DNA of 64,000 bases from Pollutimonas sp. M17 (GTDB lineage: Bacteria > Pseudomonadota > Gammaproteobacteria > Burkholderiales > Burkholderiaceae_B): assembly GCF_025836975.1 (NCBI RefSeq), contig NZ_CP107548.1, positions 1,116,001-1,180,000 on the forward strand. The letters run 5' to 3'. Position numbers and translations under genes: made by a program. Below, piece after piece: positions 2,698 to 57,216 of the stretch (position 1 is the stretch's first letter; the number at the start of each line of letters is the position of its first letter). Below the pieces are notes generated by a model. That model worked only from the letters and a program-made list of their open reading frames with translations, did no database searches and had not been told where the DNA came from.

Positions 2698-4554
2698 ATG
2701 AATCGTTTATTGCTCGCCGTTGTCGTGCTGGCGCTGGCCGCGCTTCCCCTGATTCCGGCCACGCCCGAATTCTGGATTACGCATCTCAATTACATCGGGC
2801 TGGCAAGCCTGGTCGTGCTGGGGCTGGTCCTGCTGACCGGCATAGGCGGCCTGACGTCCTTCGGGCAGGCCGCGTTCGTCGGCATAGGGGCCTACACCAC
2901 CGCCTGGCTGACCACGGCCGTGGGCTGGTCGCCCTGGGTGGCGCTGCTGATCGGCCTCATGCTGACCTTCCTGGTCGCCTATGTGCTGGGCGCCATCACG
3001 CTGCGGCTGTCCGGCCATTACCTGCCGCTGGGCACCATAGCCTGGTGCCTGTCGCTGTATTACCTGTTCGGCAATCTTGAATTCCTGGGCCAGTATGACG
3101 GCATCGCCGGCATCGCGCCCATCGAATTCTTCGGTTTCTCGTTGGGCAAGGGCCGCCATATCTATTACCTGATCTGGGTCTTCGTCCTGCTGTCCATGCT
3201 GGCAACGCGCAACCTGCTGGATTCCCGCCCCGGCCGCGCCATACGCGCCCTGAAAAGCGGCGGCGGCATGGCCGAATCCTTCGGCATCGACATGGCCCGC
3301 TACAAAGTCATCATCTTTGTGTACGCGGCCTTGCTGGCCTGCGTTTCGGGATGGCTTTACGCGCACATGCAGCGCGCCGTCAGTCCCAGCCCTTTCGGCC
3401 TGAACTATGGCATCGAATATCTGTTCATGGCGGTGGTGGGCGGCGCGGGCAGCGTGTGGGGCGCCGTGCTGGGTTCGGGGCTGATCCTGACCCTGAAGGA
3501 CCAGCTGCAGAACGTCCTGCCCAAAATCCTCGACACCAGCTCCAACTTCGAGCTCATCGTATTCGGCGTCCTGATGATACTGGTGCTGCAATACGCGCGC
3601 GACGGCATCTGGCCCATCCTGTCCTCGTGGTGGCTGGCGCTGACCGGCAAGTCCGAACGCCGGCGCATTGCGCCTCCGCCCCAGGCCCCCGACCTGCTGC
3701 AGCGGCCCAGGCCCGCCAAAGGCTCGCTGGTGCTTGAGGTCGACTCGATACGCAAGGAGTTCGGCGGCCTGGTTGCCGTGAACGACATCAGCTTCTCGCT
3801 CAAGGCCGGCGAAATCATGGGCCTGATCGGCCCCAACGGCGCCGGCAAAAGCACCACCTTCAATCTCATCACCGGCGTGCTGCCCGCCACAAGGGGCAAG
3901 GTCCGCTTCCTGGGCGAAAGGCTGGATGTCCTGCCGTCGCGCGAAATCGCCCGCCTGGGTGTGGGGCGCACCTTCCAGCATGTGCAGCTGCTGCCCACCA
4001 TGACCGTGCTCGAGAACGTGGCCCTGGGCGCGCACCTGCGCAACAAGGTCGGCGTCCTGTCCGCCGCCCTGCGCACCGAACGGCGCGACGAGGCCGAGCT
4101 GCTGCACGAGGCCGCCAAGCAATTGCAGCGCGTCGGACTGGGCGATTACCTGTACGAACAGGCCGGCAACCTGGCCCTGGGCCAGCAGCGCATACTTGAA
4201 ATCGCGCGCGCCCTGGCCGCCGACCCCGTCCTGCTGCTGCTGGACGAGCCTGCGGCGGGCTTGCGCTACAAAGAAAAGCAGGAACTGGCCGGTGTCCTGG
4301 ATCAGCTCCGCCAGGAAGGCATGAGCATCCTGCTGGTCGAGCACGATATGGATTTTGTGATGAATCTTACCGATCACCTGGTCGTGATGGACTTCGGCAC
4401 CAAGCTGGCCGAAGGCCTGCCCGCCGACATCCAGCGCAACCCCGCCGTGCTGGAAGCCTACCTGGGCGGCATCGACGACGACTTCAATTTCGACGACCCG
4501 CCGGGCGCCGCCCACGGCGCTCCTGCGGCATCCGGAGCGGGAGGCATGGCATGA
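2698..4554 (+). CDS. fused LivM permease - LivG ATPase (cluster 1)
   Basis: A 618-residue fusion. Residues 1 to about 320 are a LivM-type permease (multiple spans, [17 protein letters not shown] motif). A proline-rich linker follows at about 320-342. From about residue 343 there is a complete ABC ATPase: Walker [10 protein letters not shown] near 378, signature LALGQQR near 492, Walker B LLLLLDEP with its Asp near 516, and the H-loop EHDMD. I chose ATG 2698 because GAGGAG (2685-2690) precedes it; the in-frame ATG at 2674 lies inside the upstream gene. The permease half would pair with the LivH-like protein, and the ATPase half with the separate LivF. The last ~25 residues are acidic then Ala/Gly-rich. 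Confidence 0.88.
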
Positions 4555-5330
4555 GCAGCGGCAACAAACCCAAGCACCCCATCCTGCAGGTCACCGACCT
4601 GTCCGCCCGCTACGGCAAGGTCAACGCGGTCGTCGGCGCCAACATCTCCGTCACCCGCGGCAGCATTGTCACCGTCATCGGCGGCAACGGGGCGGGCAAG
4701 TCCACCTTGCTCAATTCCATCATGGGATCCCTGCCCGCCACCGGCAACTGCTCCGGGTCCGTGCAGTACCTGGGCTCTGAAATCGGTTCGTGGCAGGTCG
4801 AACGCCGCGTGTCCGACGGCATCTCGCTGGTGCCCGAAAGGCGCGAACTGTTCGGCAGCATGTCCGTCGAAGACAATCTGCTGCTGGGCGGCTTCCGCCT
4901 GTACCGCGCCGGCAAGCACGGCTGGAAGGAAACCATCAACGAGGTCTACGACCTGTTCCCGCGATTGCGCGAACGCAAGGCGCAGCAGGCCGGTACCCTG
5001 TCGGGCGGCGAACGCCAGATGTTGGCCGTCGGCCGCGCACTGATGGCACAACCCCAGCTGCTGATGCTCGATGAGCCCAGCCTGGGCCTGGCTCCTCGCA
5101 TCGTCCGCGAAATCTTCCAGATCATCGCCCGCCTGCGCAGCACCGGCGTGGCCATACTGCTTGTCGAACAAAACGCCCGCGCCGCCTTGCAGGTGGCCGA
5201 TTACGGCTATGTGCTGGAAACGGGCGAAGTCGTCCTTGAAGGGAAGGCCAAGGAACTCAGCGGCAATCCGCGCGTTATTGAAAGCTATCTGGGTTTGGGG
5301 AACGCCAAGAAAGAAGCCGCTGGCGCTTGA
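4551..5330 (+). CDS. Liv-type ABC transporter ATP-binding protein, LivF family (cluster 1)
   Basis: A 259-residue cytoplasmic ATPase. Walker A is GGNGAGKST at residues 44-52, the signature is LSGGERQ, Walker B is [11 protein letters not shown], and the H-loop region is LLVEQN, which is characteristic of LivF rather than LivG. It overlaps the upstream fusion gene by ATGA, so translation is probably coupled. It is the last gene of the operon. No terminator hairpin with a U-tract is visible after it; the non-coding region with the two structured repeats follows. Confidence 0.88.
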
Positions 5331-5499
5331 CAGGGCATTTCCCTGAGCAACTCTGGAACGCCGGCCGGTTCCACTATGAATCCGCCGGCGCATTGCCATG
5401 CTAATTTTGGGTCAACACCCTTCGTTCTGCGTGTTGCTAGAGTCCAGGGCACATGCATTGCAAAGGTATGCGTCGGACTTGCATCACGCAGTTCAGCAA

Positions 5500-5720
5500 G
5501 GCACGGCTGGCAGGCCTGGGGCCGTGCTCCCATCGCTTCGGCCCCTGCGGGGCTACCCTTGTCCTTGCTTCGCGGCGGGAGCCGGGCGTGAACTCGCCGG
5601 ATATCAGCCGCCTGTGGGCTGATATCCGGCTCAGACAGCACGCCCTCTTACGCTCCCACCGCGAAGCAAGGCCTGCGGCTTGCTCAAAGGTCGCCCGGCC
5701 CCAGGCCCGCCAGCCGTGCC
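5500..5720 (-). repeat. structured repeat copy A (candidate RNA element)
   Basis: Copy A of a four-member family. On the plus strand the outer stem is 5500-5523 with 5697-5720. The second stem is 5563-5581 with 5653-5671, a 7-bp stem is 5584-5590 (GGGCGTG) with 5639-5645 (CACGCCC), and the apical hairpin is 5596-5609 with 5617-5630, loop GCCTGTG. A small hairpin (GCCCC-TGC-GGGGC) lies at 5541-5553. Conserved blocks shared with the other copies include GCTTGCTCAAAGGT, TCTTACG and CTCAGACA. The two stem mismatches (A-C and C-A on plus) become U-G and G-U on the minus strand, so the minus strand is given as the likely RNA strand. It is inverted relative to copy B. Confidence 0.8.
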
Positions 5721-5899
5721 AGCGCAAGGAATCAGAAAGCCCCCAAACGCTGCGGTGCCGCAAGCATGGGAGGGCACGCTTTAATCGGATTTGGTGGAAG
5801 CGCATGATTCAAGTCGCCGCGCCCATTCCTGCATATCATACTGATGCGAATAGGCTCCCCAACCTTCGCCATGGATGCTCGCGACTCATGGACCTTGAA

Positions 5900-6118
5900 G
5901 GCGTGGCGGGTAAGCCGGGGGCGGGCGACCTTTGAGCAAGCCGCGGCCATTGCTTCAAGGCGGGGGCGTAAGAGGGCGTGCTGTCTGAGTGAGTTTTCAG
6001 CCCACAGGCGGCTGAAAACTCACGAGTTCACGCCCGGCCTCCGCTTTGAAGCAATGGCAAGGGTAGCCCCGCAGGGGCCGCAGCGATGGGAGCACGGTCC
6101 CGGCTTACCCGCTACGCC
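5900..6118 (+). repeat. structured repeat copy B (candidate RNA element)
   Basis: Copy B, opposite orientation to A, C and D. The outer stem is 5900-5923 with 6095-6118, the second stem 5947-5965 with 6039-6057, the 7-bp stem 5974-5980 with 6029-6035, and the apical hairpin 5989-6002 with 6010-6023. The loop is the exact complement of the loop in copies A and C. The small hairpin is 6066-6078. Four stem mismatches (two in the outer stem, two in the second) are G-U on this strand. The distal half of the apical stem (GTGAGTTTT) is unrelated to copy A (GCCGGATAT) yet fully paired. The 3' flank reads as the complement of TTTCTTAAACGGCG, close to the flank of copy D. Confidence 0.8.
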
Positions 6119-6254
6119 GTTTAAGAAACCAGGAAGCCCAGCGCAAGAACCAGAGACAACCGACCTACGAGCCGCGCCGCTTAAGGAAAACTGGAACGTC
6201 AGCTTGAGAATAACAAGAGGCCAAAAAAAACCAATCCAGGAAGCATCCCGAACA

Positions 6255-6289
6255 GAAAAAAGGGCGCCCATTTAAAAACAGGCGCCCTT
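6255..6289 (-). terminator. intrinsic terminator of the second liv operon
   Basis: The arms at 6260-6268 and 6281-6289 (AAGGGCGCC and its complement) flank an 11-12 base A/T-rich loop. An A-run at 6255-6260 gives the U-tract on the minus strand. It lies just after the livM stop (6314), so it ends minus-strand transcription. Confidence 0.8.
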
Positions 6290-6313
6290 GATCATGGCTA
6301 ATGGAAACGCAGT

Positions 6314-7279
6314 TCAGGCCTTCTTGTACCGATGGACCAGTTCCCCGATAATCCCGCGCCGGAACGCCATCACGCAGATGATGAAGATCAGCCCGATCAC
6401 GATCGTCACCGACTCGCCCAGCACCTGGAACCATTGCACCCCCGTGGACTGGCTGAGGAAGCGCCCGAATTCGCCCACCTTGTTCTCCAGCATCACCACG
6501 ATGAACGCGCCCAGCACCGGCCCGGTGAACGTGCCCAGGCCGCCGATCAGCGTCATCAGGATCACCATCCCCGACATCTGCCAGGTCGCGTCCGACAAGG
6601 TCGCCGACACGAACACCAGCGCCTTGGTCGCGCCGGCCAGCCCGGCCAGCGCCGCCGAGATCACGAAGGCCAGCAGCTTGAAGTTGTCCACGTTGTAGCC
6701 CAGCGAGATCGTGCGCGGCTCGTTCTCGCGCAGCGCCTTGAGCACCTGCCCGAAGGGCGAATTGACCGTGCGCCAGCACACCGCGTAGCCGAACACGAAG
6801 ATCGCCATCACCACGTAGTACAGGTTGATGTCCTGCGACAGGTCCAGCCCCAGCAGCGTGCCGCGCGGGATGCCCTGCAGCCCGTCCTCGCCATGCGTGA
6901 ACGGCGCCTGCAAAAAGAAGAAGAACACCATCTGCGCCATGGCCAGCGTGATCATCGCAAAGTAGATGCCGCTGCGCCGGATGGCCAGCGCCCCCATGAC
7001 CAGGCCCATCAGCGCGGCCACCGCCGTGCCAAAGAGCAGCCCCAGCGCCGTGGACCAGCCCCACACCGCCATCGCGTGCCCGGCCGCGTACGCCGCCCCG
7101 CCCAGAAAGGCCGCATGCCCGAAGGACAGCAGCCCCGTGTAGCCCAGCAGCAGGTTGAACGCGCAGGCGAACAGCGCGTAGCACATGACCTTCATCACGA
7201 AGATCGGATAGGCGCCCAGCGCCGGCAGCAGCGCCAGCACGAGCACCGCCACAAGAGAGCCGATGACTTGACGGTTCAT
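6314..7279 (-). CDS. Liv-type ABC transporter permease, LivM family (cluster 2)
   Basis: A 321-residue hydrophobic membrane protein with LivM hallmarks: NLLLGYTGLLSFGHAAFLGG near the N-terminus, then repeated hydrophobic spans. It is about the usual length of LivM. The start at 7279 overlaps the upstream livH by ATGA; a longer frame running upstream is an accident of overlap with livH. It forms the importer channel together with LivH. It is the last gene of a five-gene operon ordered ATPase G, ATPase F, binding protein, LivH, LivM, with a strong terminator after it. Confidence 0.88.
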   Translation of the reverse strand: MNRQVIGSLVAVLVLALLPALGAYPIFVMKVMCYALFACAFNLLLGYTGLLSFGHAAFLGGAAYAAGHAMAVWGWSTALGLLFGTAVAALMGLVMGALAIRRSGIYFAMITLAMAQMVFFFFLQAPFTHGEDGLQGIPRGTLLGLDLSQDINLYYVVMAIFVFGYAVCWRTVNSPFGQVLKALRENEPRTISLGYNVDNFKLLAFVISAALAGLAGATKALVFVSATLSDATWQMSGMVILMTLIGGLGTFTGPVLGAFIVVMLENKVGEFGRFLSQSTGVQWFQVLGESVTIVIGLIFIICVMAFRRGIIGELVHRYKKA

Positions 7280-8163
7280 TTTTCCTTCCCAAACAGACCG
7301 GCCGGACGCAGCAGCAGCACGATGACCATAATGATGAAGACCACGGTGTTGGACGCCTCGGGCCAGAACACCTTGGTCAGCCCCTCGATCACCCCCAGGC
7401 CCAGGCCCGTGACGATCGAGCCCATGATCGAGCCCATGCCCCCGATCACCACCACCGCGAACACCACGATGATCAGGTTCGAGCCCATCAGCGGCGAGAC
7501 CTGCATGATGGGCGCGGCCAGCACCCCGGCAAAGCCGGCCAGCGCCACGCCGAACCCGTAGGTCAGGGTCACCACCAGCGGCACATTGACCCCGAAGGCC
7601 TCGACCAGCTTGGGGTTCTCGGTGCCCGCGCGCAGCAGCGCGCCCAGGCGGGTCTTCTCGATGACGAACCAGGTGGCCAGGCACACCAGGATGGAGGCCA
7701 CCACCACCCAGGCCCGGTAGATGGGCAGGTACATGAAGCCCAGGTTCACCCCGCCCTTCAGAAGCTCGGGCGTGGGGTAGGGCTGGCCCGAGACGCCGTA
7801 CAGGCTGCGAAACAGCCCCTCGATGAGCAGGGTCAGCCCGAAGGTGAGCAGCAGCCCGTACAAGTGATCCAGCTTGTACAGGTGGCGGATCAGCGCGCGC
7901 TCGGTCAGGATGCCGAAGGCGCCCACCACGATGGGGGCGATGATCAGCATCAGCCAGTAGTTCAGGCCCAGGTACTGCAGGCCCATCCAGGCGATGAAGG
8001 CGCCCAGCATGTACAGCGCGCCGTGCGCGAAGTTGATGATGTTCAGCAGTCCGAATATGACCGCCAGGCCCAGTGAAAGCACAGCATAAAACGAGCCGTT
8101 CACCAGGCCCAGCAGCAGTTGCCCGAGCAGCGCCTGGATGGGTATGCCGAAGAGTGCAGTCAT
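7276..8163 (-). CDS. Liv-type ABC transporter permease, LivH family (cluster 2)
   Basis: A 295-residue integral membrane protein, typical in length for LivH. It carries LSLGLAVIFGLLNIINFAHG, the strongly conserved LivH motif, near residues 30-50. About eight membrane spans are expected. It overlaps livM by four bases. Upstream, a hairpin-containing 91-base gap separates it from the binding-protein gene, an arrangement often seen where the binding protein must be made in excess over the membrane components. Confidence 0.9.
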   Translation of the reverse strand: MTALFGIPIQALLGQLLLGLVNGSFYAVLSLGLAVIFGLLNIINFAHGALYMLGAFIAWMGLQYLGLNYWLMLIIAPIVVGAFGILTERALIRHLYKLDHLYGLLLTFGLTLLIEGLFRSLYGVSGQPYPTPELLKGGVNLGFMYLPIYRAWVVVASILVCLATWFVIEKTRLGALLRAGTENPKLVEAFGVNVPLVVTLTYGFGVALAGFAGVLAAPIMQVSPLMGSNLIIVVFAVVVIGGMGSIMGSIVTGLGLGVIEGLTKVFWPEASNTVVFIIMVIVLLLRPAGLFGKEK

Positions 8164-8210
8164 AACGATAAGAGATCCGTGACGGGGCTAGGGACAGCCC
8201 CGGTTGAAAC

Positions 8211-8243
8211 AAGAGGCCCTCCGCTGTGGCGGAGGCGCCTCTT
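8211..8243 (-). promoter_or_regulatory. hairpin between binding-protein and permease genes
   Basis: A strong near-perfect hairpin: 8211-8224 pairs with 8229-8243 around loop TGTG, with one bulge. It lies 12 bases after the binding-protein stop and about 48 bases before the livH start. It has no U-tract, so it is more likely an mRNA-stabilising or attenuating structure than a full terminator. This position fits differential expression of the binding protein. Confidence 0.55.
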
Positions 8244-28241: not shown

Positions 28242-29210
28242 ATGCCGCTTTTCCCTATGCGCAAAACAGTTATTGCCAATAACCCTGCTCCCAGTGTGCG
28301 TTTTATCGAAATCGACGCCGAACACGCGGGCCAGCGCATCGACAATTTCCTGTTGCGTTTATGCAAGGGCGTGCCCAAGAGCCATTTGTACAAGGCCATA
28401 CGCAACGGCGAGGTGCGGGTCAACAAGGGGCGGATCGCCGCCGATTACCGCCTCGAGCAGGGCGATACGCTGCGGGTGCCGCCCCTGCGGCTGCCCCGGC
28501 CCGACGAGGCGCGCAAGGCGCCGCCCGCCGTATTTCCCGTCGTCTTCGAGGACGACGCCATGGTCGTCGTCAACAAGCCCGCCGGCCTGGCGGTGCATGG
28601 CGGCAGCGGGGTGTCTTTCGGCGTCATCGAGCAATTGCGCGCCGCGCACCCCGATGCGCCCCTCCTGGAACTGGCCCATAGGCTGGACCGTGAAACCTCC
28701 GGGCTGCTGATCGTCGCCAAGAAGCGCAAGGCCTTGCTGGGCCTGCACGACATGATGCGCGAAGGCGCCGGGCGCAAGCATTACCAGGCCCTGGTGGTGG
28801 GCGACTGGGTGAACGACAAGCAGCACCTGCGCCAGCCTTTGCTGAAATGGCTGACCGCCTCGGGCGAGCGGCGCGTAAAGGTGGACCCGTCCGGCAAGGC
28901 GGCGCACACCATCATCACCCTGCAAAAGCGCTATGGACGCTACAGCCTGCTGGGCGCCGAGCTGCGCACCGGCCGCACCCACCAGATCCGGGTGCATCTG
29001 GCCGCCAGCGGCCATCCCATCGTGGGCGACGAAAAATACGGGCCGGACGAGGTGCGCGCGCATTTCGCCCGTCTGGGCCTGAACCGCATGTTCCTGCATG
29101 CCTGCCGCCTGGAAATCCCACACCCCCTGACGGGGGAACCGCTGGTCCTGACGGCGGATCTGCCCCCGGCCTGCCTGAATATTCTTGATTACCTGGAGCA
29201 AAATTCGTGA
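28242..29210 (+). CDS. rluC: 23S rRNA pseudouridine synthase, RluC/RluD family
   Basis: A 322-residue protein. An S4 RNA-binding domain (RIDNFLLRLCKGVPKSHLYKAIRNG) is followed by the synthase domain with the catalytic Asp in AHRLDRETSG and the RTHQIRVHLA motif. It isomerises specific uridines in 23S rRNA; RluC modifies three sites near the peptidyl-transferase centre. Assignment to RluC rather than RluD rests on its place divergent from rne, as in E. coli and other proteobacteria. ATG 28242 and ATG 28257 are both possible starts. It overlaps the next gene by GTGA. Confidence 0.9.
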   Translation: MPLFPMRKTVIANNPAPSVRFIEIDAEHAGQRIDNFLLRLCKGVPKSHLYKAIRNGEVRVNKGRIAADYRLEQGDTLRVPPLRLPRPDEARKAPPAVFPVVFEDDAMVVVNKPAGLAVHGGSGVSFGVIEQLRAAHPDAPLLELAHRLDRETSGLLIVAKKRKALLGLHDMMREGAGRKHYQALVVGDWVNDKQHLRQPLLKWLTASGERRVKVDPSGKAAHTIITLQKRYGRYSLLGAELRTGRTHQIRVHLAASGHPIVGDEKYGPDEVRAHFARLGLNRMFLHACRLEIPHPLTGEPLVLTADLPPACLNILDYLEQNS

Positions 29211-29860
29211 AACGCTATTCGGCCGTGGTCTTCGACTGGGACGGCACCGTGATGGATTCGACGCATTCCATCGTGGCGGCCATACAGGGCGCCTGCGCCG
29301 ATCTCGGCTTGCCGGTGCCGCCGGCCCAAGAGGCGGCCTGGGTCATCGGCCTGTCGCTGGAAAGCGCCTTGTATCGCTGCGTCCCCACGCTCACGGCCGA
29401 CCAGATGCCCGATTTCGTCGACCGCTATCGCGTCCACTTTCTCAGACGCGATCCGGAGATCAAGCTTTTCGACGGCATCACCGACCTGCTCGCCACGCTG
29501 CAGTCCCGCCAGGTCCGCCTGGGCGTGGCCACCGGCAAAAGCAGGGTCGGCCTGGACAGGGTGCTGACAGCGAAGCAACTGCATGGGCATTTCCATGTAA
29601 CACGCTGCGCCGACGAGTCCTTCAGCAAGCCCCATCCGGCCATGCTGCTGGAAATCATGGAGATGCTGGACATCCCGGCGGAACAGATCCTGATGGTGGG
29701 GGACACCTCGCACGACATACAAATGGCGGCCGCGGCGGGCGTGGACAGCATGGCCGTCACCTACGGCGCGCACGATACGGCGACCCTGCTGCAGGCCGAG
29801 CCCACCGTCATGGTGTCCAGCGTGGGCGAAATGCAGTCCTGGCTGCTGGACCGCGTCTGA
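29207..29860 (+). CDS. HAD-family phosphatase, Gph-like
   Basis: A 217-residue haloacid dehalogenase-type hydrolase starting with GTG (29207). Motif I is VFDWDGTVMDS with the nucleophilic Asp, motif II TGKSR, motif III a Lys in SKPHPAML, and motif IV MVGDTSHDIQMA. The helical cap between motifs I and II is of phosphoglycolate-phosphatase size. Homologues next to rluC are common in this group. It dephosphorylates small phosphoesters such as 2-phosphoglycolate or nucleotides; the exact substrate is not readable. Confidence 0.85.
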   Translation: MKRYSAVVFDWDGTVMDSTHSIVAAIQGACADLGLPVPPAQEAAWVIGLSLESALYRCVPTLTADQMPDFVDRYRVHFLRRDPEIKLFDGITDLLATLQSRQVRLGVATGKSRVGLDRVLTAKQLHGHFHVTRCADESFSKPHPAMLLEIMEMLDIPAEQILMVGDTSHDIQMAAAAGVDSMAVTYGAHDTATLLQAEPTVMVSSVGEMQSWLLDRV

Positions 29861-29995
29861 CCGGCGCCATCCGGCCGGCCGTCCCCGGGACAATCGCCAT
29901 AAATCAGCGGTGCCGGGAAGAGGGGGGCCGTACAACCGGAACTTTTTGCCGCCTTGCCGCGTCATATCCGGAAACGCCTCCAGGAACGGATCGCC

Positions 29996-30958
29996 ATGCC
30001 CAAGAACGCAATTCCGCCCATCGCGGCTTCCGACATCACCCCCGAGCCCGTGTGGCTGTCGCGGCGCAACTGGCTGCGGCAGGCCGGCCTTGGCGCTCTC
30101 GCCCTGGGCAGCGGCGGCCTGCTTTCGTTGGATGCCGAAGCATCCCAGGCGGTGCAAAAGCTTTCGGCCGCGCCCAATCCCGAATACTGGCTCAGCGCCA
30201 AGCAGACTTCTGAAAAAGACGTCAGTTCGTACAATAATTTCTATGAGTTCGGCACCGGCAAGACCGATCCCCTGGACTATGCCGGCAAAATGCAGACGCG
30301 GCCCTGGACCGTCAGCATCGAGGGCGAAGTGGCCCGGCCGCGCACATTCGACATCGACGACCTGCTGAAGCTGGCCCCCATCGAAGAGCGCGTCTACCGC
30401 CTGCGCTGCGTCGAGGCCTGGTCCATGGTCATCCCCTGGAACGGCTATTCCCTGGCGACGCTGCTGCGGCAGGTCGAGCCCACCAGCAAGGCGAAATATG
30501 TGGAATTCATCTCGGCGGTGCAGCCGGCCAACATGCCCGGCCTTAATGACCGCATCATCGACTGGCCCTATACCGAGGGCCTGCGCATCGATGAAGCCAT
30601 GCATCCGCTGACCATGCTGGTGTTCGGCGTGTACGGCAAGATCCTGCCCAATCAGAACGGCGCGCCCATGCGGGTGGCCATCCCCTGGAAATACGGCTTC
30701 AAGTCGGGCAAGTCCATCGTCAAGATCCGGCTGGTCGAAAACATGCCCGTCACCAGCTGGGCCAAGATCGCGCCCAACGAATATGGCTTCTACGCCAACG
30801 TCAACCCCGACGTCCCGCATCCGCGCTGGAGCCAGGCAACGGAACGCCGCATCGGCGATGGCTTCTTCGCCCCGCGCGTGGAAACCCTGCCTTTCAACGG
30901 CTATGGCGAGCAGGTCGCGTCTTTGTACGCCGGCCTGGATCTTCGAAAAAACTATTAG
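29996..30958 (+). CDS. msrP: protein-methionine-sulfoxide reductase catalytic subunit MsrP
   Basis: A 320-residue periplasmic molybdoenzyme. A twin-arginine signal ([20 protein letters not shown]) shows folded export by Tat. The core is the sulfite-oxidase fold with the Mo-coordinating Cys in [10 protein letters not shown] and the [11 protein letters not shown] and [15 protein letters not shown] segments. It repairs oxidised methionines in envelope proteins using electrons from MsrQ. I chose ATG 29996 because the Tat motif then starts at the usual distance; a longer frame begins at 29954. msrQ follows after seven bases. Confidence 0.95.
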
Positions 30959-30965
30959 GGTGCCC

Positions 30966-31586
30966 ATGCTGAAAGACGGGCCGCGCTGGACGGCGAAGCA
31001 GGTCGGTAGGGCCAAGCCCCTGGTCTTCCTGCTGGCCCTGTACCCCCTTTTTCGCTGGGTGTGGCTGGGATTCAGCGGCGGGCTTGGGGCGAATCCGCCC
31101 GAATTCCTGATCCGGTCTTCCGGCATCTGGGCGCTGGTGGCGCTGGGGCTCACCCTGGCCATCACGCCCTTGCGCCGCATCGTCGACCAACCCGCCCTGG
31201 TGCGCCTGCGCCGCATGCTGGGCCTGTTCGCCTTCTTCTACACCTGCCTGCACCTGCTGGGCTGGGCTTTCTGGGAAAGGGGCTGGTCGCTGTCCTCGAT
31301 GTGGGACGACGTCGTGCAGCGTACATTCATCACGGTGGGCATGGTGGCCTTCCTTCCCATGCTGGCGCTGGCCTTGACTTCAACGCGCGGCTGGATTCAT
31401 CGCCTGGGCCGCAATTGGCAGCGACTGCATCGCAGCGTCTATGCGATTGCCGCCTTGTCGGTGTGGCATTTCTGGCTGGTCCGCGCGGGCAAGAACGACT
31501 TTTTCGAGCCCTATGTGTATGGTGCGTTGCTGGCCGTGCTGTTGCTGATACGCGTGGCCTTCTATGCCAGGCGGAGTCGTAGCTGA
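30966..31586 (+). CDS. msrQ: heme b membrane subunit MsrQ
   Basis: A 206-residue membrane protein, normal length, with five to six spans. Conserved His residues for heme lie in FYTCLHLLGWAF, QRLHRSVYAIAALSVWHFW. It takes electrons from the quinone/flavin pool and passes them to MsrP in the periplasm. The ATG at 30966 gives the expected N-terminus and the seven-base spacing from msrP. It is followed by 615 non-coding bases holding repeat copy C. Confidence 0.93.
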   Translation: MLKDGPRWTAKQVGRAKPLVFLLALYPLFRWVWLGFSGGLGANPPEFLIRSSGIWALVALGLTLAITPLRRIVDQPALVRLRRMLGLFAFFYTCLHLLGWAFWERGWSLSSMWDDVVQRTFITVGMVAFLPMLALALTSTRGWIHRLGRNWQRLHRSVYAIAALSVWHFWLVRAGKNDFFEPYVYGALLAVLLLIRVAFYARRSRS

Positions 31587-32202
31587 CCTCCTTCGGGCTC
31601 TTGCCGCGCCGTCAAGCTGAAGCCGGCACGCGGCGGCTAGCCTATTTTCGGTTCAGGTGTTTACAGGCTTTATGGCCTGTGAGTGTGTGGCCATGGTTGT
31701 GAGTGTGTGACGTCCGCTTGTTAAACCGGCGCAGCCGGTGGGCAGGGGCCGGGCTCCGATCGCTGCGCCCCTTCGGGGTCCCCTTGCAGCCGCTTTGCGC
31801 CGGGGGCCGGGCGCGAACTCGCCGGCAATCAGCCGCCTGTGGGCTGATTGCCGGCTCAAACATGCGCGCCCTCTTACGCCCCCGGCGCAAAGCAGCTGCG
31901 GCGGCTTGCTCAAACGTCACCCGTCCCCTGCCCACCGGCTGCGCCTTGGCAGCATGACTGGCGACGGACTACGGCGGGATGATGGACACTGGTGGGGCGC
32001 CGAACCGGCCACGAGGAGCAAGGCCGGCTCCCGCCACCCGGCACGCGTCAGAGAATACCCTGGACGAACCTTGCCCAGTTCCACAACCCTGCACGAACCT
32101 TGCCCGGCTCTACAAAATATCGCAGCAGCAGAACCAACAAGCACGTAAGCACCTGAACTGAAAATGCTCTAGCCAGGCCGTCGCGCCGCGGCCTCCGTTC
32201 CA
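31587..32202. other. non-coding region after msrQ
   Basis: A 616-base gap without a credible gene. It holds repeat copy C (31729-31945). Before it lie a weak hairpin (31663-31680, ACAGGC pairing with GCCTGT) and a GTGAGTGTGTG direct repeat at about 31679 and 31699. After it, ACGAACCTTGCCC occurs twice at about 32064 and 32092. Frames crossing the region are not conserved between repeat copies. Confidence 0.6.
31729..31945 (-). repeat. structured repeat copy C (candidate RNA element)
   Basis: Outer stem 31729-31752 with 31922-31945 (one mismatch). Second stem 31787-31806 with 31879-31898, one C-A mismatch on plus (G-U on minus). The 7-bp stem is 31809-31815 (GGGCGCG) with 31865-31871 (CGCGCCC); compared with copies A and B a T-A pair has become C-G, a compensatory change. 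The apical stem 31821-31834 with 31842-31855 has loop GCCTGTG, identical to A and B, but a different distal stem. The small hairpin in the left block reads CCCC-TTC-GGGG. It lies between msrQ and an amidase gene. If transcribed on minus it would follow the amidase gene. Confidence 0.8.
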
Positions 32203-33039
32203 TCAAGGCAATGCCTTCAGTATGGCCAGCGTCTCGGCGTCCGGATTGCCGTCGTAGAGCGCTGGACGGTAGTGCATCTGGAAGGCGGCGATCACGTTCC
32301 GGGTGGCCTTGTCCAGCGTCCCGCTGTAGGGGACGTCGTAGCCCGTGCGGCGCAATTCCTTCTGCACCCAGGCCACGTCGGGCAGGCCCTTCCATTGGAA
32401 TTCTTCCCGGTAGGCCCGCATCAGGGTTTCGTCGTACCAGCGCCCCAGGCCCTGCCGGGCCAGTTCCCGCCAGGGAAACAGCGGGCCCGGATCTATCTTG
32501 CGTTGCGGGGCAATGTCGCTGTGGCCGACGATATTGGGCGCCTTGATCTGGTGGCGGGCGACGATGTCTTTCAGCAGCAAGGCCAGGACGCGCATCTGCT
32601 CCGGCTTGTAGGGTTCCCACTCGTCGCCCTGCCTGCCCTGGTTGACGATCTCGATTCCGATGGAGCCGCTGTTCATGTCGGTGCGCCCATACCACTGGCT
32701 GACGCCCGCGTGCCAGGCGCGGCGGCTTTCGTCGACCAGTTGATAGACATGGGGCCGGGGCTCGTCGGTGATCAGGTAATGGCTGCTGACATTGCGCTGG
32801 GACAGTATCTTCAGCGATGCTTCATTGCCGGCCGAGGTGTAGTGCAGCACCACGAACTCCACCCGGCTGTTCTGGCTCTGCGCCTGTATGCTGCGATCGA
32901 TATCCAGCCGTCCGGGCCGGGTGGACGAACAGGCGGCCAGGGCAGCCAGCGCCAGGCAGGCCGCCAGTCGCGCCGCGTGCCGCAGCACCCGGCCGGCGCC
33001 CGCCGAGCGTCCGTGGCGGGCGAACATGGACGTGGTCAT
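32203..33039 (-). CDS. N-acetylmuramoyl-L-alanine amidase lipoprotein, AmiD-like
   Basis: A 278-residue outer-membrane-type lipoprotein. The signal peptide ends in the lipobox LAALAAC with the lipidated Cys at 37. The amidase_2 domain follows with zinc ligands in FVVLHYTS, the mid-domain His (RRAWHAG) and GHSDIAPQRKIDPG. A C-terminal peptidoglycan-binding domain occupies about 215-278. It cleaves the N-acetylmuramoyl-L-alanine bond and, like E. coli AmiD, probably acts in peptidoglycan recycling or turnover at the outer membrane. Closely spaced after the methyltransferase gene on the same strand. Confidence 0.88.
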   Translation of the reverse strand: MTTSMFARHGRSAGAGRVLRHAARLAACLALAALAACSSTRPGRLDIDRSIQAQSQNSRVEFVVLHYTSAGNEASLKILSQRNVSSHYLITDEPRPHVYQLVDESRRAWHAGVSQWYGRTDMNSGSIGIEIVNQGRQGDEWEPYKPEQMRVLALLLKDIVARHQIKAPNIVGHSDIAPQRKIDPGPLFPWRELARQGLGRWYDETLMRAYREEFQWKGLPDVAWVQKELRRTGYDVPYSGTLDKATRNVIAAFQMHYRPALYDGNPDAETLAILKALP

Positions 33040-54737: not shown

Positions 54738-55862
54738 ATGTCACTATTCAAGCGTTCCGTAGTATCTGAAATCTCCAGTCACGCGGGCGTCGTGTTCTCG
54801 ACCCTGCTGGTCGTCTGGCTGAGTGTCCTGCTGGTTCGCCTGCTGGGCGAGGCCGCCAACGGAACCATAGGCGCCGACGTTGTCTTCGGCCTGGCTACTT
54901 TTTCCAGCATCACCGCCTTGCCGGTGATCCTGGCCGTGTCTCTGTTCATCGCGGTGCTGACGACGGTCACGCGCAATTTCCGCGAGTCGGAAATGGTGGT
55001 GTGGTTTGCCAGCGGCCTGTCTCTGAAGGACTGGGTGGGTCCGGTGCTGCGCTGTGCGGTGCCGGTGGCGGTGGTGATCGCGATACTGACATTGATGGCT
55101 TCGCCTTGGGCCTACCGGCAGATCAGCGAGTACAGGCAGCGCTATGAGCAGCGATCCGATTTGTCCAAGGTGACGGCGGGGCAGTTCATCGAAACGGAAG
55201 ACGGCGCCAGGGTGTTTTTTGCCGAGGAGCCGAATCAGCCGGGCGAGGAGATGGGCAATGTGGTCGCCAGGGTAATCGATCCGGAATGGCTCAGCGTGAT
55301 CACGGCCGAAAGCGCGCGCATACAGAACGAGAAAAACGGGGATCGCTTCCTGGTGCTCAGCCAGGGGCATCGCTATGACTTGAAACCGGGGAAGCCGGAT
55401 TTCCGCATGATCGATTTCGAGCGCTATGGTTTCAGGCTGGAAAGCAAGGCCAGTGCGAGTTCCATCGACGCGGTCCGGCAGATGGCGGAAAGCGAAATGA
55501 AGGCACGCCCGACGGCGCAGCTTTTCATGGACGATAACAATGACGCGCGTTCGCAGATCATGTGGCGGATGGCTTTGCCTCTGGCGGCGCTGAACCTGGC
55601 TCTGCTGGCGATTCCCTTGGGGGCGGTGAACCCGCGGCTGGGGCGGTCTGGGGATTTCCTGATCGCGGGGCTGGTCGGCCTGCTGTATATGAACCTGATC
55701 AATCTGTCGCGAGGCTGGATAGGGAAGGGGCAGCTGAGTTTCGGCGTGGGGGTCTGGCTGATTCATGCGCTGTTTACGGCGCTGATGATGTATATGATGT
55801 GGCGGAAGTTAAGGGTGAAGGCGCCTAAGGAGCCTAAGGGGCGACCTGCTGCGGCAACTTGA
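54738..55862 (+). CDS. lptF: LPS export ABC transporter permease LptF
   Basis: A 374-residue inner-membrane protein with six spans (three near each end) and a periplasmic beta-jellyroll domain (about 130-265). It starts MSLFKRSVVSEISSHAG, typical of LptF. It extracts LPS from the inner membrane together with LptG and LptB. Odd point: lptG, normally the very next gene, is absent; after the stop come 130 non-coding bases and repeat copy D. The last ~10 residues are Lys/Pro/Ala-rich. Confidence 0.94.
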   Translation: MSLFKRSVVSEISSHAGVVFSTLLVVWLSVLLVRLLGEAANGTIGADVVFGLATFSSITALPVILAVSLFIAVLTTVTRNFRESEMVVWFASGLSLKDWVGPVLRCAVPVAVVIAILTLMASPWAYRQISEYRQRYEQRSDLSKVTAGQFIETEDGARVFFAEEPNQPGEEMGNVVARVIDPEWLSVITAESARIQNEKNGDRFLVLSQGHRYDLKPGKPDFRMIDFERYGFRLESKASASSIDAVRQMAESEMKARPTAQLFMDDNNDARSQIMWRMALPLAALNLALLAIPLGAVNPRLGRSGDFLIAGLVGLLYMNLINLSRGWIGKGQLSFGVGVWLIHALFTALMMYMMWRKLRVKAPKEPKGRPAAAT

Positions 55863-56268
55863 GTCGATCAACTCTGATTTTGCCGTCGTCGATTTCTGTT
55901 GCTGTGTAGGCACATGTCATTTTGTGCCGAGCTATTTTTTCGTTTTTGGAGTGCTGCTGTTTATAGGCAGTCGTCAGTTAGCTTTCTTAACCGGCGAGGC
56001 GGGCAGGCAGAGGCTGGGCTCCCATCGCTGCGGCCCTTCGGGCTTCCCTTGTCCCGGCTTTCCAGCGGGGGACGTGCGCGAACTCACAAATGGTCAGTCC
56101 CCCGGACTGACCATTTGCTCAGACAGCGCGCACTCTTACGCCCCCGCTTCCAAGCCAGGCCGGCGGCTTGCTCAAAGGTCCCCCAGCCTCTGCCTGCCCG
56201 CCACGCCTTGAAATTCATCGGCTTTAAGCTAAAGTGGCTTGTTAATCAGGATCGAGGAAGGATTGGGT
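55863..56268. other. non-coding region between lptF and the GGDEF gene
   Basis: A 406-base gap. It holds repeat copy D (55993-56207). Bases 55863-55992 are more AT-rich and show no gene or clear signal. Bases 56208-56268 should contain the promoter and the ribosome-binding site (GAGGAAGG) of the GGDEF gene. lptG would be expected here in related genomes but no remnant is recognisable. Confidence 0.55.
55993..56207 (-). repeat. structured repeat copy D (candidate RNA element)
   Basis: The most diverged copy. The outer stem begins at 55993 and ends at 56207 with one mismatch. The second stem (about 56052-56070 with 56135-56160) has an internal loop. The 7-bp stem is 56074-56080 (GTGCGCG) with 56127-56133 (CGCGCAC), again fully paired but different from both A/B and C. 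The apical stem is 56087-56100 with 56104-56117 and has loop CCC instead of GCCTGTG. The small hairpin reads GCCC-TTC-GGGC. Conserved blocks GCTTGCTCAAAGGTC, TCTTACG and CTCAGACA are kept. Confidence 0.78.
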
Positions 56269-57216
56269 ATGTCCGATGTCAGCAAGCTTTTTGATGACAG
56301 CGCAGTGTACAGAACCTTGCTGGAATCGACCAAGGCGATTCCTTGGAAGATCGATTGGGCCACGATGAAATTCGCCTATATCGGCCCTCAGATTGAGGCG
56401 TTGCTGGGCTGGAGCCGTGAGAGCTGGGTGAGCGTGGAGGACTGGGCCATGCGCATGCATCCCGAGGACCGTGAATATGTGGTGAATTTCTGCGTCGCCC
56501 AATCCCAAGCCGGCATAGACCATGAGGCGGACTACCGAGCGCTGACCAAGGACAACGGCTATGTATGGATTCGCGACGTTGTGCACGTGGTGCGCAATGA
56601 CAGAGGCGAGGCCGAAGCGCTGATCGGCTTCATGTTTGACATCACCGAGCGCAAGAAGACCGAGCAGGAGTTGCTGAGCTTGCAAAAAGAATTGGAGGCC
56701 CTGTCCTTCAAGGATGGTTTGACGAACATTGCCAACCGGCGTCGCTTTGATAGCAGTTTCGAATTGGAGTGGGAGCGTGCGCGCAGCGAACGCCAGCCAT
56801 TGTCTATGTTGTTGTTCGACGTCGATTTTTTCAAGCAGTACAACGATTTGTATGGCCACGCTCAGGGTGACCAGTGCTTGGTGGATATCGCCCAGACGCT
56901 GAGTTTGGCACTAGATGGCCCTCGCGATCTTGTTGCGCGCTACGGCGGGGAAGAGTTTGTCGTGCTGCTGCCTGAAGCCGATGCCGAGGTGGCCCGGAAA
57001 GTCGCTGAACGCTGCCAGCGATTGCTCCAGATGAAGTCTATCGTGCATGCACTGTCGCCGCATGGCAGGCGCGTTACTGTCAGCATAGGTGCGGGCACAG
57101 TGGTGCCAGATGAGCAGGCCGAGCCTGCTGCCTTCATCAAAGCCGTAGATCAGCAGCTATATGCGGCCAAGAACAACGGGCGGCACCGCATTGAGCATGT
57201 GCAGTTGAAGGCCTAA
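56269..57216 (+). CDS. PAS-GGDEF diguanylate cyclase
   Basis: A 315-residue soluble protein. A PAS domain covers about 15-125 (IPWKIDWATMKFAYIG, LGWSRESW, then a PAC tail GFMFDITERKKTE). A short coiled linker follows, then the GGDEF domain (about 150-315) with DGLTNIANRR and the active-site motif RYGGEEF. No inhibitory RxxD pair is obvious before GGEEF. It should make cyclic di-GMP from two GTP in response to whatever the PAS domain senses. ATG 56269 has GAGGAAGG upstream. It stands alone next to repeat copy D. Confidence 0.9.
   Translation: MSDVSKLFDDSAVYRTLLESTKAIPWKIDWATMKFAYIGPQIEALLGWSRESWVSVEDWAMRMHPEDREYVVNFCVAQSQAGIDHEADYRALTKDNGYVWIRDVVHVVRNDRGEAEALIGFMFDITERKKTEQELLSLQKELEALSFKDGLTNIANRRRFDSSFELEWERARSERQPLSMLLFDVDFFKQYNDLYGHAQGDQCLVDIAQTLSLALDGPRDLVARYGGEEFVVLLPEADAEVARKVAERCQRLLQMKSIVHALSPHGRRVTVSIGAGTVVPDEQAEPAAFIKAVDQQLYAAKNNGRHRIEHVQLKA

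Follow-up and report, generated by a model that had tools for sequence, protein, structure and literature searches.

A family of multicopy structured elements lies between the genes of Burkholderiales, in at least 11 families of this one order, and a folded single strand of fixed polarity is kept at many of its sites. The element came to attention in a 64,000-nucleotide (nt) stretch of Pollutimonas sp. M17 (positions 1116001–1180000 of a 3.85 Mb single-contig genome; hereafter the window), for which the original prediction had proposed a four-copy intergenic element with variable stems and fixed loops. The four copies were recovered to within a few bases of their predicted positions, each as a full-length match to one covariance model (187–202 bits). 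Their alignment has a mean column identity of 82% and contains the short blocks that had been reported as identical between copies; the block GCTTGCTCAAAGGT, with up to two mismatches, occurs four times against 0.43 expected. The element is not limited to these four copies, as the same genome carries at least 26. In our tentative reading, the elements are residents that act in the form of a folded single strand, probably RNA, and outward-facing pairs of them are two-way transcription boundaries; as a whole we place this reading somewhat short of probable.

Fold, covariation and strand polarity

The unit of about 225 nt forms a three-way junction, in which a long outer stem leads to a small hairpin and a long arm, the latter built of three stems with two conserved inner loops between them. 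Read on the folded strand, the junction strand after the outer stem often resembles TTTGAGCA.GCC; the long arm follows with two inner stems, an asymmetric bulge that usually ends in AAG and, under the apical stem, the inner loop CTGTYYGAGC opposite GCGAGTT. The small hairpin after the long arm starts with GGGNANCC and is followed in many copies by GCGA before the outer stem closes. The same fold thus recurs in the copies as proposed, but the presence of a third arm makes it a three-way junction and not a set of nested stems alone. Two window copies were folded against dinucleotide shuffles, giving −163.3 kcal/mol (z = −12.4) for copy 1 and −138.7 kcal/mol (z = −10.6) for copy 4, values reached by 0 of 200 shuffles in either case. 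The model often leaves the outer stem of members from other families of the order unmatched, many matches spanning approximately model positions 30–188. Two variants were seen: in these other families the core is followed by a further hairpin, TTACTTTTCTTGGCGA..CAAGAAAAGT, apparently common to the genomes (most of the loci L177–L191, but not L179; L183 and L186 lie outside this reading), and a copy in L107 (1501–1796, genome G020) carries an insert of about 77 nt beside the apical stem.

Outside Alcaligenes, a tail with YAAGAA directly follows the element in 38 of 97 copies, and within 240 nt the motif is found 83 times downstream and six times upstream of these copies. Its recurrence in the flanks is most often at about 38–41 nt. 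Short tandem repeats (about 18–22 or 38–42 nt) of locus-specific sequence adjoin the copies in L102, L005, L009, L118, L127 and L015.

The covariation is overwhelming: one three-armed fold is kept while its letters change. In an alignment of 73 copies fitted to the model, 72 of the 76 pairs are changed on both sides and 96.4% of the cells are paired, compared with 35–44% when the partners are slid; the covariation score is 0.869, compared with 0.182 for shuffled and 0.084–0.110 for slid alignments. The 13 own-genome copies, aligned with MAFFT from sequence alone, have 97.6% of the cells paired and two-sided changes in 38 of the 76 pairs, and 0 of 500 shuffles were as high in either measure; one of the five measures used, the number of further pair types, showed no excess in these copies (67 compared with 64.5 in shuffles; 102/500). 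The original proposal that the long stems differ between copies yet remain paired is therefore borne out both within the genome and in the larger set.

The wobble pairs and the stability of the fold assign the element to one strand and rule out the strand on which it was originally quoted. On the quoted strand the non-Watson–Crick stem cells comprise 29 A–C, 16 G–T (13 of them from one fixed column) and 19 others, and as A–C mismatches on this strand are G–U wobbles on the opposite one, the folded strand is the opposite one. In the stems of the 73 copies, junction pairs excluded, there are 178 G–T, 34 A–C and 139 other cells; G–T cells outnumber A–C cells in 57 copies, A–C cells outnumber G–T cells in three and the two are equal in 13. 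In 167 of 169 copies (74 of 75 in Alcaligenes, 26 of 26 in the own genome and 67 of 68 in other relatives) the sense strand gives the more stable fold, a preference that arises partly from the shared loops, so that the copies do not amount to 169 independent observations. A folded strand of this kind is more simply read as RNA, and probably is RNA.

Copy number and taxonomic range

Searches were made with two covariance models, R1, built from the 13 copies found first, and R2, built from 73 copies of nine genomes; opposite-strand shadow matches (14 in the R1 search of the own genome and 15 in the search of fetched loci) were left out. In the own genome R1 found 23 sites, 14 scoring above 190 bits, and three more copies appeared as partners in fetched loci. 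Further copies are thus plentiful, and five Alcaligenes genomes have 22–29 matches each. In the surveys of the taxonomic family, the order and the phylum, five to eight candidates were scored per genome, so that the counts are lower bounds and absence is weak evidence. R2 matched 77 of 268 genomes of the same family, in 26 of 43 genera, and 68 of these 77 have two or more matches (at most eight scored per genome). Of 300 genomes of the order it matched 23, with 20 of these belonging to ten other families, and of 398 sampled from the phylum it matched two, both within the same order. A pattern search gave 17 stretches in named genomes, of which 12 have strong matches (Alcaligenes, Pusillimonas, Pollutimonas, Candidimonas and an Alcaligenaceae bacterium) and one, in a Peribacteria metagenome-assembled genome, has a weak match of 38.6 bits. 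Four of the 17 stretches, including both Vogesella records, have no model match; there the pattern had occurred by chance, and Vogesella was dropped as a host.

Pairs, partner modules and siting relative to genes

Copies often come in pairs that face outward. The 80 fetched sources contain 18 such pairs, with spacers of 52–318 nt, and one same-direction pair, and all 16 pairs in 60 Alcaligenes loci are outward; close-spaced outward pairs are also present in six named-genome loci (L194, L197, L198, L200, L204 and L205). Within a pair, the scores are often far apart and the members resemble separate subfamilies. In one genome, pairs recur as units at more than one place (L095, L103), and the spacer length is unequal at matching sites (81 nt in L241 and 520 nt in L275). 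In the window, copies 1 and 2 form an outward-facing pair with a spacer of about 180 nt (L070), copy 2 being inverted relative to copies 1, 3 and 4. At L235 one Alcaligenes species has a single copy, lacking the spacer and one member of the outward pair that two others have at L267 and L290. A partner module, B, lies near nine of the 13 first own-genome copies, one of the nine being a remnant. When R2 was applied to B in ten sources, one gave a match with E = 0.0004, facing outward, two gave weak matches (E = 0.35 and 0.76) and seven none; module B is probably, but not certainly, a distant member of the element family. L336 has two B-like modules in place of A + B, and L337 starts alike.

The Alcaligenes siting and ortholog figures cover all 24 regions of G097, 16 of 18 of G098 and 20 of 23 of G100, two near-identical G098 repeats being omitted. 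Both neighbouring genes were called at 55 of these loci, giving 39 convergent, 16 tandem and no divergent arrangements, with five more not callable; 65 of 71 copies have on their 3′ side a gene that ends toward them. A convergent setting was found for 15 of the 16 pairs, compared with 24 of 39 singles (p = 0.02). A terminator-like site stands ahead of the element in 59 of 94 facing gaps, compared with 110 of 470 shuffles, which weakens the candidate explanation of an ordinary element of the mRNA 3′ untranslated region. Other relatives have 18 convergent, eight tandem and two divergent sites, with 30 not callable, and their 3′-side gene faces the element for 25 copies and does not for nine. Genes were called with a simple codon model, which is wrong for at least one own-genome locus: it gave an open reading frame (ORF) at 29189–31216 without a Pfam match, as against the ferric-reductase-like gene at 30783–31586. 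In L105 (1792–2156) a copy directly adjoins the tmRNA gene.

Evolution of single sites in Alcaligenes

Single sites can be followed between Alcaligenes species, and at 21 of the 24 G097 loci one flank or both match those of an element-bearing locus in G098 or G100. In 36 comparisons, a chosen part of the matching-site set that overlaps because three genomes were used, divergence within the element is 505 of 8093 positions (6.2%), compared with 15.4% in the preceding and 21.2% in the following 80 nt. Of the inner-loop positions, 11 of 330 have changed (loops being recognised in 22 of the 36 comparisons). The stems show 131 pairs changed on both sides and still Watson–Crick, while changes to G–T number 45, to A–C 28 and to other mismatches 29; 26 pairs have gone from G–T to Watson–Crick. 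The comparisons leave out L235, L242, L243, L250 and L252 against other genomes and most direct G098–G100 matches, and the pairing of L240 and L247, which match several loci, is less certain. The element is thus constrained at its site, unlike a decaying transposon copy.

Possible role and rival explanations

The outward orientation of the pairs, their siting at gene ends and their position past terminator-like sites suggest that a pair forms a boundary to read-through from both sides. In the mechanism that we propose, a read-through transcript from either converging gene would enter the pair and would carry exactly one sense copy, the far one. This copy would fold while being made, and its fixed loops and 3′ tail may engage a host factor; the factor would end or trim the transcript, and the pair would in this way act as a two-way transcription boundary. 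An element with such strong covariation, which has at least two dozen copies in each of several genomes and occurs in at least 11 families, should have a host partner; to our knowledge, none is known. An extended form of the proposal, an order-wide system of outward heterotypic pairs of a conserved three-way-junction RNA past the terminators of converging genes, in which read-through from either side would make exactly one sense copy and a dedicated factor would end or trim the transcript, is in our view doubtful.

Several observations weigh against a transcription boundary made of RNA. Singles between tandem genes show no sense bias (five sense and ten antisense in Alcaligenes, three and two in the own genome, five and one in others), which speaks against a strict boundary form. 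Siting in the own genome is mixed, with nine convergent, five tandem and seven divergent sites and one not callable, and the 3′-side gene faces the element for 13 copies and does not for 11. The three Alcaligenes genomes have loci in common, so that their siting counts are non-independent. The YAAGAA motif has no polarity in Alcaligenes (19 downstream and 24 upstream, 76 copies), and the bias of G–T over A–C is mild in Alcaligenes orthologs (64 versus 36). Terminator-like sites on the element's own strand show no clear excess (28 of 94, compared with 110 of 470 shuffles), and a search for promoters of the sigma-70 type upstream of the element gave no enrichment over shuffles. A clustering of −10-like sites first seen in Alcaligenes was discarded, together with the idea of an own sigma-70 promoter, when near-duplicates had been removed (110 of 127 kept; permutation p = 0.78). 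Finally, two-sided repair can also result when DNA is mended on a hairpin template, with no selection acting on RNA.

The main rival explanation, which we consider rather unlikely, is a non-autonomous mobile element, REPIN-like or resembling a miniature inverted-repeat transposable element (MITE) but very large, of which the folded single-stranded DNA is recognised by a recombinase and for which gene 3′ ends are harmless landing sites; the structure would be kept because movement needs it. Such a giant REPIN-like element would account for the many copies per genome, the patchy occurrence over genera (26 of 43), the recurrence of pairs as units (L095, L103) and an inverted-pair architecture like that of REPINs and BIMEs. 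It would also account for a subset of own-genome copies in units bounded by the inverted repeats GCATTTTCGGTTCAGGTG (window 31637–32172 and the units of L021, L022 and L035), of which two, at 1147642 (the window unit) and 2166380, have CTAG at both ends. These units resemble a MITE of the IS5 type by the target preference of that type. The contrast with MITEs made in the original prediction accordingly stands in so far as the stems are rewritten and not shared, and gives way for copy 3, which lies inside such a unit. No empty target site was seen for the units with terminal inverted repeats (TIRs) and CTAG, and by eye the other copies have no recognisable TIR.

Against mobility, the element stays put across Alcaligenes species (21 of 24 G097 loci matched), and a divergence about three times below that of the flanks is not expected of spent copies. 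The Y1 transposase does not track the element, Y1_Tnp (PF01797) being found in three of 17 element-bearing genomes and in two of 14 genomes without a match, so that mobilisation of the HUH/RAYT kind is unsupported. No clean empty site was found at the two candidate loci searched: L253 has a hairpin-internal deletion in G100, and at L256 the element is complete in G096 and G101, present as half a copy in G098 and missing along with adjacent DNA from G100. This last absence may count for mobility, gain and loss being indistinguishable there. A plasmid- or phage-borne element was rejected, as copy 1, the sole copy tried, had no blastn match.

In G098 the element is itself a landing site for an IS110-family element. 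Four loci (L324, L325, L326 and L327) have split or half copies that adjoin near-identical IS110-family DNA, and a 342-residue IS110-family recombinase ORF is present in L324 and L326 (in L324, Transposase_20 3e-27 and DEDD_Tnp_IS110 8e-17). In L324 (515–617 and 2008–2100), where the edges were read, the insert lies inside the apical hairpin; L325 has the same break as L324 by BLAST, and the other two of the four loci have half copies. That IS elements insert into REP repeats is known from the accessible part of an earlier report (PMC1525189).

It is quite improbable that the copies are ordinary long inverted repeats, the arms of which are matched by hairpin-templated DNA repair (quasipalindrome correction) with no function of a folded strand. 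Arm-to-arm copying would give the observed excess of two-sided over one-sided changes even at short distance (131 versus 45 + 28 + 29), and a hairpin-internal deletion in L333 and the short tandem repeats at or beside copies agree with it, but it leaves unexplained the strand bias (G–T 178 versus A–C 34), the conservation of unpaired motifs across many genera and the slow divergence of the loops in place (11 of 330 positions). Least likely of all, and very improbable, are stand-alone trans-acting small RNA genes transcribed from the spacer outward, in the direction of the gene ends that face it: the outward sense strand in all 16 Alcaligenes pairs, the conserved loops and the strong polarity of the 3′ tail motif outside Alcaligenes fit them, but there is no promoter signal, little terminator signal on the sense strand and no common spacer length at matching sites (L241 and L275).

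Comparison with known repeats and structured RNAs

The element is an addition to the bacterial interspersed structured repeats. REP, BIME and REPIN repeats are, like our element, tied to gene ends and to IS110-type insertions, and a REPIN or REP unit is a short simple hairpin of 20–40 nt. The ERIC, RU-1/RU-2 and Correia/NEMIS repeats form a class of 100–200 nt that is foldable, intergenic and partly MITE-like, in which the stem sequence is kept; the bridge RNAs or seekRNAs of IS110 elements measure 150–250 nt. In the parts of the REP, BIME and REPIN literature that were available (PMC2817692, PMC3116915), these repeats are multicopy, intergenic, palindromic and often in inverted pairs, as is our element (18 outward pairs in 80 sources; 16 of 16 in Alcaligenes), which differs from them in its length of about 225 nt, three-way junction, fixed inner loops, covarying stems and strand-specific wobble, and in having no link to a Y1/RAYT transposase (Y1_Tnp in 3/17 element-bearing genomes). 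With the ERIC, RU and Correia class, MITE-like repeats of which are treated in the accessible part of PMC2759123, it has in common that it is foldable and intergenic and that a subset has TIRs; it differs from that class and from MITEs in that the stem letters are replaced with pairing preserved (72 of 76 pairs) and TIRs were recognised in the subset only.

Among the published repeats of these bacteria that we met, the nearest is BRE, a GC-rich intergenic repeat of Bordetella and Comamonadaceae with up to 29 copies per genome (Hot et al. 2011, PMC3110155). According to the available part of that report, it is about 90 bp long and often in direct tandem, and one locus yields detected small RNAs. 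BRE is likewise intergenic and multicopy and is set apart, in this partial description, by being about 90 bp long and often in tandem and by inverted pairs being unreported there, as against about 225 nt and outward pairs. The bridge RNAs and seekRNAs of IS110/IS1111 elements are similar in being structured RNAs linked to IS110 (PMC11208160 and PMC11187229, in their accessible parts), but the window copies are flanked by transporter, reductase, amidase, LptF/G and GGDEF genes and by no recombinase, the loops are fixed and not guide-like, and in G098 it is IS110 that is inserted into the element. From a stand-alone bacterial small RNA gene it differs by lacking sigma-70 promoter enrichment over shuffles.

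Rfam 15 gave no match in the window at the gathering score. For 16 loci searched with E up to 1 it gave five matches, of which the real one is the tmRNA beside one copy and the others are below the gathering scores. No earlier description was found in the open-licence literature, a scope that excludes most subscription papers, nor a match in the accessible parts of PMC2267715, PMC12306157 and PMC8632094. With strong covariation, further copies and no known Rfam family in the window or the 16 loci, the proposal that the element is structured and undescribed, with fixed loops and with stems that vary but stay paired, is supported, kinship to BRE aside.

Copies and neighbouring genes in the window

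The features of the window are collected in Table 1. Each of the four copies has genes with Pfam matches on both sides, in agreement with the predicted location in gaps between transcription units. The start of the permease ORF beyond copy 2 is ambiguous, as 7276–8163 in another frame matches the same family (BPD_transp_2); a terminator-like hairpin with a T-run was seen by eye at about 6255–6300 near this ORF.

Table 1. Coordinates of the element copies, their conserved parts and the flanking genes in the window.
Feature	Position	Strand	Evidence
Copy 1 of the element	5499..5719	folded strand -	R2 187.6 bits, model 1-219; fold z -12.4 on the other strand
Copy 2	5900..6120	folded strand +	R2 202.2 bits, model 1-219
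Copy 3	31726..31945	folded strand -	R2 192.1 bits; inside TIR-bounded unit
Copy 4	55991..56207	folded strand -	R2 195.4 bits
Conserved 5′ junction strand GACCTTTGAGCAAGC, copy 2	5927..5941	+	Sequence; pattern match 5928-5941 on the other strand
Conserved inner loop CTGTCTGAG, 5′ side, copy 2	5981..5989	+	Sequence, conserved columns
Apical stem, copy 2	between 5990 and 6022	+	
Conserved inner loop CGAGTTC, 3′ side, copy 2	6023..6029	+	Sequence, conserved columns
3′ tail TTTAAGAAACC after the outer stem, copy 2	6120..6130	+	Sequence; tail polarity in other copies
CTAG and left TIR, MITE-like unit around copy 3	31637..31659	+	
Remnant of partner module B beside copy 3	31995..32062	+	blastn match of L006 to B modules; CGGCCACGAGGAGCAA at 32006-32021
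Right TIR and CTAG, unit around copy 3	32150..32172	-	
ABC transporter ATPase gene, ends toward copies 1 and 2	4551..5330	+	Pfam ABC_tran 1.4e-25
Branched-chain amino acid permease ORF (BPD_transp_2), ends toward copies 1 and 2	6314..8212	-	Pfam
Ferric-reductase-like gene flanking copy 3	30783..31586	+	Pfam PF01794 (Ferric_reduct) 9.1e-16
Amidase_2 gene flanking copy 3	32203..33039	-	Pfam 2.8e-34
LptF/LptG gene flanking copy 4	54738..55862	+	Pfam LptF_LptG 3.2e-56
PAS-GGDEF gene flanking copy 4	56239..57216	+	Pfam 3.6e-49; start may be ATG at about 56269

Conclusions

In conclusion, this family is a natural test case for the question whether the interspersed repeats of bacteria are parasites or functional components, because its single sites can be traced from species to species, evolve under constraint where they stand and restore their pairs. 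The family would be a large addition to the RNA databases, and it would explain blank regions between converging genes in Alcaligenaceae and their relatives.
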